From assembly GCA_009787695.1 (NCBI GenBank), contig WQSW01000006.1, positions 32,532-80,396 of the forward strand: DNA of 47,865 nucleotides, written 5' to 3'. Origin of the DNA: Treponema sp. (GTDB taxonomy: Bacteria; Spirochaetota; Spirochaetia; Treponematales; Breznakiellaceae). The translations under genes and the position numbers were made by a program. Every line of letters starts with the position of its first letter. The first letter of the stretch is position 1. Below the pieces are notes generated by a model. It saw only the letters and a program-made list of their open reading frames with translations, had not been told where the DNA came from and searched no databases. Shown here piece by piece: positions 37,131-39,742 of the stretch.

Positions 37131-37394
37131 CTATTTTTCTGTTTTTATAATATCTATTATTCTTACTCCGAAATTTTCATCTACAACAACAACTTCTCCG
37201 ATTGCTATTTTAACATTATTTGCATAAATATCAACAGGCTCTCCTGCCAATTTATCAAGTTCAAGGATAGTTCCTTCCTCAAAATTTGAAACTTGTTCAA
37301 GAGTTGCTGATCTTCTGCCCAATTCTGCAATAATTTGAACATTAATGTCTTTTAAAGCACCCGTTGTTTCCAATACATTGTTTTTTTCACTCAT
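37131..37394 (-). CDS. fliN: Predicted internal FliN product within the FliM-FliN frame
   Basis: ATG 37394 lies in the same frame as the fusion and has GGAG (37407-37404) 9 nt upstream, embedded in codons that link the FliM and FliN parts. Start here would give a free 87-aa FliN. In type III secretion systems (SctQ/SpaO) an internal start of this kind makes the free C-terminal product needed for the ring; I infer the same by analogy. Confidence 0.45.
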   Translation of the reverse strand: MSEKNNVLETTGALKDINVQIIAELGRRSATLEQVSNFEEGTILELDKLAGEPVDIYANNVKIAIGEVVVVDENFGVRIIDIIKTEK

Positions 37395-38399
37395 ATAATT
37401 TTTCTCCAATTTCCATTCCTTTTTTATAATATTTATTTTTTTATAACTGTTATTTTCTGTCTGACAACAGTGTGCCGCAGCATTGCAAAATTCACCGATG
37501 CATAAATTATCTATAAATAATCTTCCGGTAAAAGGAGCTTGATCGTTTATTATGATAGTTCCTTTTGTATCCAATAAATCAACCAATTGATTTACTGTTA
37601 TTTCTTTTCTGAAATATTCAGCCCTTATTGATTTTTTAAGTCCGTCCAGATTTTCTAAATCTATTTTTTGATTGTTATTTCTTTTTTCTGCATATCCGAA
37701 AACATTAGATAATTTTCCTATGATCGATTCGACTGTCGGGAACGGAATGCAGAAATTCATCATTCCTTCTGTATCTAAAATTCTAAATTCAATTGTTACA
37801 AGAACAATCATCTCTGTAGGCTGGGAAATTTTTAAAAATTGCGGATTGGTTTCTATCGCTTCTAAACGCGGCTGTAAATTCAATACCGGCATCCATGCTT
37901 CACATAAGTTCGCAATCATTCTATTAAAAATTCCTGTCATTAATGATTTTTCAATATCAGTCATTTCATGTTGAATATTCGGTGCGTTTCCGTAACCGCC
38001 TAATATTCTGTCTAACATTGCAAAGGAAATACTAGGATCGATTTCCAAGACGGCATAACCGTTTAAAGGATGCATATTAATAATTCCAAGCGATGAAGGA
38101 GTCGGAACAGATCTTATAAACTCTTCAAAAGTAAGCTGATCTACTGAAGCAATATGGGCATAGCTCATAGCTCTGCATTTTGCTGTAATTGAATTTGTTA
38201 TTAATCTTGCAAAATGTTCATGAATGATAGATATGTTTCTTAATTGTTCTTTTGAAAATCTGTCAGGGCGTTTAAAATCATAAATTTTAATTTTTCTGGA
38301 TCCGGCTGCCGGTCTGAAATCTGCCGGTTTGGAATTATCTGAATTATTAATTGCGGTAAGTAATTGGTCTATTTCATCTGCCGATAATACATCTGTCAT
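37131..38399 (-). CDS. FliM-FliN fusion, flagellar motor switch protein
   Basis: ATG 38399 (AAAGGA upstream, 2 nt after the fliG stop) gives 422 aa. Residues 1-335 are FliM of normal length: the CheY-binding start L-S-A-D-E-I-D-Q-L-L, the CheC-like middle domain with the FliG-contact motif G-G-Y-G (in 'ILGGYGNAP'), and a rather diverged C-terminal SpoA domain (about 255-315). Residues 336-422 are a complete FliN-type SpoA domain ('NVQIIAELGRRSATLEQV', 'LDKLAGEPVDIYANNVKIA', 'ENFGVRIIDI'). No stop lies between. The FliN part begins with Met336 (37394), preceded by GGAG, so free FliN may be made too. FliM and FliN build the C-ring that sets rotation direction. Confidence 0.88.
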   Translation of the reverse strand: MTDVLSADEIDQLLTAINNSDNSKPADFRPAAGSRKIKIYDFKRPDRFSKEQLRNISIIHEHFARLITNSITAKCRAMSYAHIASVDQLTFEEFIRSVPTPSSLGIINMHPLNGYAVLEIDPSISFAMLDRILGGYGNAPNIQHEMTDIEKSLMTGIFNRMIANLCEAWMPVLNLQPRLEAIETNPQFLKISQPTEMIVLVTIEFRILDTEGMMNFCIPFPTVESIIGKLSNVFGYAEKRNNNQKIDLENLDGLKKSIRAEYFRKEITVNQLVDLLDTKGTIIINDQAPFTGRLFIDNLCIGEFCNAAAHCCQTENNSYKKINIIKKEWKLEKNYMSEKNNVLETTGALKDINVQIIAELGRRSATLEQVSNFEEGTILELDKLAGEPVDIYANNVKIAIGEVVVVDENFGVRIIDIIKTEK

Positions 38400-38401
38400 A
38401 A

Positions 38402-39742
38402 TTAATCCTTTAAAATTTCTCCGCAAACAGGGTTTGCTTCTTCATCAATATCATTTTCATCGGAATTTTCCTTGAGTACTTCTATTATTTGTAATTGCGC
38501 ATCACGGATATCATCATACCATATTACTTTTATTTTTTTAATTAGTCCTTTTACTTTTAATTTCTTTATGAAATTTAAATTTTTAAATACCATTTTTCTT
38601 TGATTATTATCTGTTCCAAACAATGATACAGCCAAAATTTCATTATCTATCTTTTCAAAGATTTCTTTTTTACTGTAAGCAAAAAGATAAGAAAAAGAAT
38701 CAAAAGGTAATATTTTATTGTCTTTTAATTCTTTTTCATTATATTTTATATCATCAACTATTATTTCATCTTCGCCTGCTCTTGCAATAACTATTTCACC
38801 GGTATCTTCTAAATGCCGGCAAATGGCAATAATTTTTGATTGCGCTTCTGCGACATCTTTTATCCGAATAGGTCCCATATATTCCATGTCTTCTTTTAAC
38901 ATACTAACCGCACGTTTTGACATATTTATAAAAAGTTTATCCTGTACTTCTGTATCAACAGCTTTAAGAGCTTTAGCAAGTTCTGTCGAGTCAACTTCGC
39001 GCAATAATTTTTGTATAGCGCGATCATCGAGCGTAACTATATCTTCAAATACAAACATCAGTTTTTTAATTTCTTCCGCTAATTCAGGGTCTTCATCTTC
39101 CAGCGCTTCGATAATTTGTTTTTCTGTAGCACGATCAACAAGATTTAGAATTTCTACTATTGATTCAACACCGCCAGAATATGTCCAGCCTTCTTTGTGA
39201 GTCATTGAAGATAATTTTTTTTCCAGTATTTTTTCAATTTCTCTGACTGTTTCAGGTTCTACCGCATCCAGCAATGCTATCCGTTTTGCAACCTCGCTTT
39301 GAATTTCGTGCGGAAAGTTTCTTAATAATACTGCCGCTTTTTTTGCTTCCATGAAAGACAGAACCACAGCTATTGTTTGAGGCATTTCCTGTAACAATAA
39401 ATGAAGTACCTGAGCGGGATCGCATTTTCGGATAAAGTCAAAAGGAGCACAAACAGAGTTTGCGGTGCCTGATATTGATTTTTTAATTTGAAATTCCATT
39501 AGTTTTTCTGTAAAAGCAGCGTAGAGTTCTTTATCAATATCATTAATATTCAATTTCTTTTTTAGTATATTTAATAATAAGGTATCTGCTTGAGAGCCGG
39601 AACGATTTATAGTATCCGAAATTATAAAGTTTAAAACATCGTTATCGCTGTCGCTGTAATCTTTAATTATACAAAGCGCTTCCTCGCCGTAATAATCGGT
39701 GAAATCTTTGGTTAATTTTGTTCTTAGGTTATTGATATTCAT
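38402..39742 (-). CDS. FliG-like flagellar motor switch protein with a duplicated C-terminal domain
   Basis: The 446-aa product is about 100 residues longer than usual FliG. Residues 1-95 do not show a clear FliG N-terminal (FliF-binding) domain. The middle domain (about 101-180) has E-M-P-Q in place of the conserved E-H-P-Q. The C-terminal torque domain (about 232-325) is well kept, with 'DDRAIQKLLREVDSTELAKALK' carrying the charged residues that face the stator. A second copy at about 347-425 ('FDSFSYLFAYSKKEIFEKID', then 'NEILAVSLFGTDNNQRKMVF') keeps hydrophobic positions but has lost most charged ones. It has its own promoter and an AAAGGA Shine-Dalgarno, and heads the unit with fliM-fliN. 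Confidence 0.88.
   Translation of the reverse strand: MNINNLRTKLTKDFTDYYGEEALCIIKDYSDSDNDVLNFIISDTINRSGSQADTLLLNILKKKLNINDIDKELYAAFTEKLMEFQIKKSISGTANSVCAPFDFIRKCDPAQVLHLLLQEMPQTIAVVLSFMEAKKAAVLLRNFPHEIQSEVAKRIALLDAVEPETVREIEKILEKKLSSMTHKEGWTYSGGVESIVEILNLVDRATEKQIIEALEDEDPELAEEIKKLMFVFEDIVTLDDRAIQKLLREVDSTELAKALKAVDTEVQDKLFINMSKRAVSMLKEDMEYMGPIRIKDVAEAQSKIIAICRHLEDTGEIVIARAGEDEIIVDDIKYNEKELKDNKILPFDSFSYLFAYSKKEIFEKIDNEILAVSLFGTDNNQRKMVFKNLNFIKKLKVKGLIKKIKVIWYDDIRDAQLQIIEVLKENSDENDIDEEANPVCGEILKD

Follow-up and report, generated by a model that had tools for sequence, protein, structure and literature searches.

Two adjacent switch genes at the locus

The window analysed here, the whole 47,865-nucleotide stretch of a Treponema sp. 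contig, carries two adjacent genes for switch-complex proteins (Table 1). In such complexes FliG_N anchors FliG to FliF, ARM_C stacks on FliG and the torque subdomain faces the stator, while the N-terminus of FliM binds CheY-P and SpoA domains join rings. The product of fliG3 scores 309.8 bits with TIGR00207 (fliG) against a cut-off of 226.7, and Pfam detects FliG_M (PF14841; residues 109-182, 81 bits) and FliG_C (residues 212-319, 170 bits for the whole protein). The ATG of fliMN lies just past the stop codon of fliG3, and the open reading frame as called starts at a TTG at position 38426.

Table 1 Positions of the fliG3-fliMN genes and of the FliG3 domains in the window.
Feature	Residues	Coordinates	Strand	Description
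fliMN		37131..38399	(-)	FliM-FliN fusion, directly after fliG3
fliG3		38402..39742	(-)	FliG paralogue, 446 aa: N-domain, FliG_M, FliG_C and second FliG_C
fliG3 N-domain	1-95	39458..39742	(-)	Helical; not detectable as FliG_N
fliG3 FliG_M	100-185	39188..39445	(-)	EMPQ in place of EHPQ; 54% identity with own FliG2
fliG3 first FliG_C (ARM_C and torque subdomain)	212-328	38759..39109	(-)	Torque charges intact
fliG3 second FliG_C torque subdomain	about 343-432	38459..38704 (residues 347-428)	(-)	Torque charges lost

The sequence-only reading of this DNA had taken FliG3 for a specialised version of one of the two FliG proteins of spirochaetes. A specialised, non-standard FliG it is, but it is neither of the two, since a canonical FliG2 adjoining fliF in a flagellar operon (C10:47185-47922, L038) and a FliG1 (C11:10225-10977, L039) are both present elsewhere in the same genome. 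Judged from these sequences, FliG3 is a third paralogue, derived from FliG2: it shares 68% identity with its own FliG2 over residues 93-339. With the own FliG1 the identity is 26%. In a tree built from FliG2 sequences, the FliG3 proteins of three genomes cluster together on a long branch (support 99/96). FliG3 has the order of FliG_M and FliG_C and the torque charges of the first FliG_C in common with FliG2. What sets it apart is the missing FliG_N, EMPQ, a second FliG_C and a location beside a FliM-FliN fusion, away from the fliF-fliG operon. Like FliG1, it is an additional FliG encoded away from the standard operon.

For the torque positions we used the E. coli FliG residues K264/R281/D288/D289/R297. 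The corresponding residues in the first FliG_C of FliG3 are K260/R277/E284/D285/R293, identical to those of FliG2 (K/R/E/D/R). The FliM-binding motif EHPQ(R), on the other hand, has changed, as had been noticed before: it reads EMPQT both in FliG3 and in its orthologue at L040, ELPQT in the orthologue in genome G027 and EHPQT in the own FliG2, so that the canonical EHPQR is absent from all three FliG3 orthologues.

The neighbouring gene, which the sequence-only reading did not mention, encodes a FliM-FliN fusion in which, using the frame as called, Pfam finds FliM (PF02154) at residues 49-239 with 224 bits and the FliN SpoA domain (PF01052) at residues 358-427 with 82.5 bits; the first SpoA region is too divergent for Pfam. 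FliMN has a CheY-binding-type N-terminus (LSADEIDQLL), a FliM middle domain with GGYG and a C-terminal FliN SpoA domain. With the own FliM it shares 63% identity over residues 7-264, and with the SpoA domain of FliY 51%. Counterparts were aligned from L040 and G027, and each of the three proteins has kept the CheY-type motif intact. A FliM-type and a FliN-type SpoA domain in one chain is also what characterises SctQ/Spa33 and a described FliM-FliN fusion (PMC4832279); compared with SctQ/Spa33, FliMN has a clear FliM identity, the CheY motif and a FliG travelling alongside.

The two-gene cassette is present in three of the 40 genomes of the genus (G000, G061 with L040, and G027), always in the order fliG3 then fliMN and with different neighbours in each. 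No other clear instance turned up among 394 genomes drawn from across the order. It is under purifying selection, with dN/dS values of 0.05-0.22 across the N, M and C domains of FliG3 and 0.18-0.19 for FliMN, at dS near saturation; the tail and the linker of FliG3 evolve fast. We regard it as very unlikely that the cassette is a decaying, functionless duplicate: the fast-evolving parts and the presence in so few genomes would fit decay, but both genes have kept open frames and dN/dS well below 1 in three species despite a near-saturated dS. Most relatives of the source genome in the public collection are Treponema MAGs, and from their bin names we take the hosts to be termites or cockroaches. 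Viral contigs gave no relative, and the open-access literature gave no account of a third FliG like FliG3, of a FliG carrying torque domains in tandem or of soluble MotA in termite treponemes.

The tail of FliG3 is a second FliG_C domain

The sequence-only reading had described an intact FliG_C followed by a second, degenerate one, and this second domain is confirmed as real and not a chance likeness. The tail alone (residues 322-446) matches Pfam FliG_C with 29.9 bits and an E value of 7e-7 over profile positions 17-106 (cut-off 23.3 bits), and a profile scan of the own genome returns it as a separate FliG_C match (29.6 bits, E 1.6e-6). Against a FliG2-C profile it reaches a z of 5.2 over shuffled sequences, with none of 150 shuffles scoring as high, and hhalign aligns it to FliG_C over 74 columns with E 8.5e-5. 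The structure predicted by AlphaFold2 (pLDDT mostly 62-82) points the same way: helices in the tail start at residues 367, 379, 391 and 409 and those of the first FliG_C at 252, 264, 276 and 294, a constant offset of 115 residues, by which, in place of a superposition, the likeness was judged.

Read in ungapped register by eye, the tail has F/I/G/L/W at the five torque positions, so all five charges are gone, in agreement with the reported loss of the charged stator-facing residues; the L040 tail, likewise by eye, has F/G/K/I/W. The two tails are 39% identical with a dN/dS of 0.42, and the L040 tail scores 18.7 bits with Pfam FliG_C, under the cut-off. Two of the three orthologues have the tail; FliG3 of G027 is without it, and its sole torque domain no longer has R281 and R297. 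It follows that the module can do without the tail and that torque transmission is not conserved in the group. The rapid change of the tail, the low score of the L040 tail and the lack of a tail in G027 count against the role that we propose below.

Soluble MotA and stray FliG_C domains in the family

Many genomes of the genus also contain FliG_C outside any FliG, and here we found soluble MotA domains, in which both cytoplasmic segments of MotA are joined and the transmembrane helices are missing. Against the PDB they match both segments of the MotA cytoplasmic domain with E values of 1e-13 to 6ysf and 8ucs, without the transmembrane segments of those proteins, and the second segment alone gives a weak match. 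In the motor, R90 of MotA contacts D289 of FliG and E98 of MotA contacts R281 of FliG (PMC7564593). We placed these two positions by aligning the RREGLLALE motif with E. coli MotA ourselves; on that basis the equivalent of R90 is kept in 47 of 55 soluble domains and that of E98 in 42 of 55. Strong soluble-MotA matches are confined to the own family of the source, with 18 of 294 genomes of the order having them. Within the genus they co-occur with extra FliG_C (counts 11/2/7/20, Fisher p 0.0007), a test to be read with the incompleteness of MAGs, shared ancestry and the manual sorting of fragments in mind.

The arrangements vary. In the same genus, single chains have one to three soluble MotA domains followed by FliG_C (L133:1518-2270, L128:3722-5584, L128:5600-7201, L137:1614-2312 and L140:3030-4019). 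In two-gene operons (L129, L130, L132, L135 and, from another genus of the family, L216) the gene for a short N-domain with FliG_C immediately precedes a soluble MotA gene, and in many cases stop and start codons overlap. Two further chains combine FliG_C with a leucine-rich-repeat-like stretch and a pair of soluble MotA domains (L214:9772-12189 and L218:2417-4318); the first lies in a complete single-contig genome of 4,059,867 bp, which makes an assembly artefact unlikely. Another tandem FliG_C is found in L136:1780-2928, which has an N-domain and FliG_C twice, the second copy degenerate, and L134:2224-3837 has eleven DUF4116 repeats before its FliG_C. The own genome encodes a soluble MotA of 149 aa on C45 and, about 4 kb before the window on the same contig (C6), an 880-aa protein with Sel1-type repeats, soluble MotA and ankyrin-type repeats (L190:4226-6868; repeat types by eye), near kinase-like and VWA-like genes.

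It is possible, though doubtful, that in this family the contact between the MotA cytoplasmic domain and FliG_C has left membrane and motor behind and now serves to pair soluble proteins. It would do so both within single chains and between the products of two-gene operons, alongside TPR, Sel1, ankyrin, LRR, MORN and DUF4116 repeats, and FliG3-FliMN would be one branch of this reuse. The putative soluble rotor-stator pairs lie outside the window. If soluble MotA and FliG_C bind each other, the rotor-stator contact would be available in soluble form with a directly measurable affinity, and a motor interface would have turned into a general interaction module.

The N-terminal domain of FliG3

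The first 95 residues had been said not to look like the FliF-binding domain, and this assessment stands. A Pfam search of residues 1-95 for FliG_N (PF14842) gave no match, the one weak FliG_N hit in the protein falling on the middle domain (120-215), and no other Pfam family was found there at a meaningful level. Against the FliG_N profile the region reaches a z of -0.96, and the 23% identity to the own FliG2 is a level reachable by force-aligning unrelated helical sequence. At the level of sequence, a normal FliG_N is disfavoured by the Pfam search and the profile shuffles. Residues 1-95 are common to all three orthologues, with 59-70% identity and dN/dS of 0.05-0.15. When the domain was modelled alone with one orthologue in AlphaFold, one of five models reached a pLDDT of 79, with helices at 3-18, 20-29, 33-47, 51-63 and 71-91. 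Foldseek with this model gave no significant match to anything in the PDB, MotA included, which says little either way because AlphaFold was run on two sequences and one model in five was confident.

The region is predicted to be a helical domain, and a MotA-cytoplasmic origin is hinted at by the profile comparisons. The N-domain scores a z of 2.2-2.3 over shuffles with the soluble-MotA profile (p 0.01-0.03). Of 453 control windows, only two are not outscored by the G027 N-domain, and both are true soluble MotA domains. Widening the profile to 55 domains made the match no better.

These values bear on an explanation that we consider improbable, namely that FliG3 is part of a soluble rotor-stator interaction network of the family. 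In it, FliG_C and membrane-free MotA would pair up within signalling or scaffold proteins that have nothing to do with rotation, and residues 1-95 would be a diverged soluble MotA domain. The many loci with soluble MotA and stray FliG_C fused or in operons, their co-occurrence in the genus, the z values given above and a helix order in the model that is compatible with soluble MotA are what such a network would predict. By direct comparison the match nevertheless stays no more than suggestive (hhalign E 0.04-0.07, 3-5 bits in HMMER, no Foldseek match to MotA), the equivalents of MotA R90 and E98 would be lost in residues 1-95, and the partner of FliG3 is FliMN and not soluble MotA.

A proposed accessory switch module

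The source genome (2.8 Mb in 115 contigs) has one full FliF and one standard FliG2/FliM/FliY set, with fliM and fliY on C25 and a MotA-MotB pair on C54. With a single FliF and a single standard switch set there is no sign of a separate second motor, and an accessory role is the most likely one. We therefore tentatively favour, while holding it to be somewhat short of probable, the reading that FliG3-FliMN is a specialised accessory module of the switch, able to respond to CheY-P and to join the rotor with no FliF anchor of its own. This reading draws on the conservation of the cassette in three species with different neighbours, on the low dN/dS and on the retained CheY motif, as well as on the uneven identity of FliG3 to the own FliG2, which is 90% in ARM_C and 79% in the torque subdomain and only 54% in FliG_M.

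The module would have been built from copies of fliG2, of fliM and of the FliN domain of fliY/fliN, and placed away from the flagellar operons. FliG3 retains ARM_C for stacking on a neighbouring FliG and a torque subdomain for facing the stator, whereas the FliF anchor is gone. The middle domain, which binds FliM, has drifted together with the FliM-FliN partner, a single chain that carries the CheY-P-binding motif and both a FliM and a FliN SpoA domain. We propose that FliG3-FliMN is taken up into the standard C-ring in sub-stoichiometric amounts, or docks there, through ARM and SpoA contacts and not through FliF, and that the charge-stripped second torque domain, at or near the stator face, could lower or bias torque or switching in a CheY-P-dependent manner. 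That FliM-FliN fusions can be used is indicated by a Salmonella fusion strain that, as cited in PMC4832279, has limited and fragmented C-rings (Kihara et al. 1996). Lacking FliG_N, FliG3 may also never reach the rotor, which would speak against an accessory module. As a FliG with two torque domains and no FliF anchor, accompanied by FliMN, the pair is a natural experiment on which switch parts are required for ring joining, CheY-P binding and stator contact.

A somewhat unlikely alternative is that the two proteins form a soluble mini switch complex off the rotor, a decoy that titrates CheY-P, occupies MotA or does both, and so acts as a sink or clutch. The missing FliF anchor, the kept CheY-type motif and the torque charges kept in two of three FliG3 proteins all suit such a decoy, and the same genome encodes another FliM-like protein that could act as a CheY-binding stray. 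This protein (L146:709-1395, on C27) has 228 aa and two CheY-type motifs, the GGXG FliG-binding block is deleted and a SpoA domain is missing. FliG3-FliMN, however, retains FliG_M, the GGXG of FliM and the FliN SpoA domain, and a pure CheY-P sink would need none of these.

We hold it to be very unlikely that FliG3-FliMN is a switch dedicated to some of the motors, for example those at one pole, in which residues 1-95 would provide a different FliF anchor. Specialisation of motors through FliG does occur in spirochaetes, since FliG1 of Borrelia has an asymmetric localisation and is not needed for flagella to be made (PMC7225975), but the sole FliF gene clusters with the standard FliG2, and the presumed anchor region is without a FliG_N match.

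Two further observations concern relatives of these proteins. An order-level relative has FliM, FliMN_C, FliG_M and FliG_C in one chain of 605 aa (L150:967-2784), a single-chain switch, and long FliG-like frames at L149, L151, L152, L157 and L158 are probably of the same kind. Two proteins of about 160 aa resemble each other by eye (YWVSPNGEM in L009:2645-3139 and YWISPKGKI in L214:5583-6065); the former adjoins FliG3 in G027, and the latter adjoins soluble MotA-DUF4116 proteins in another genus.
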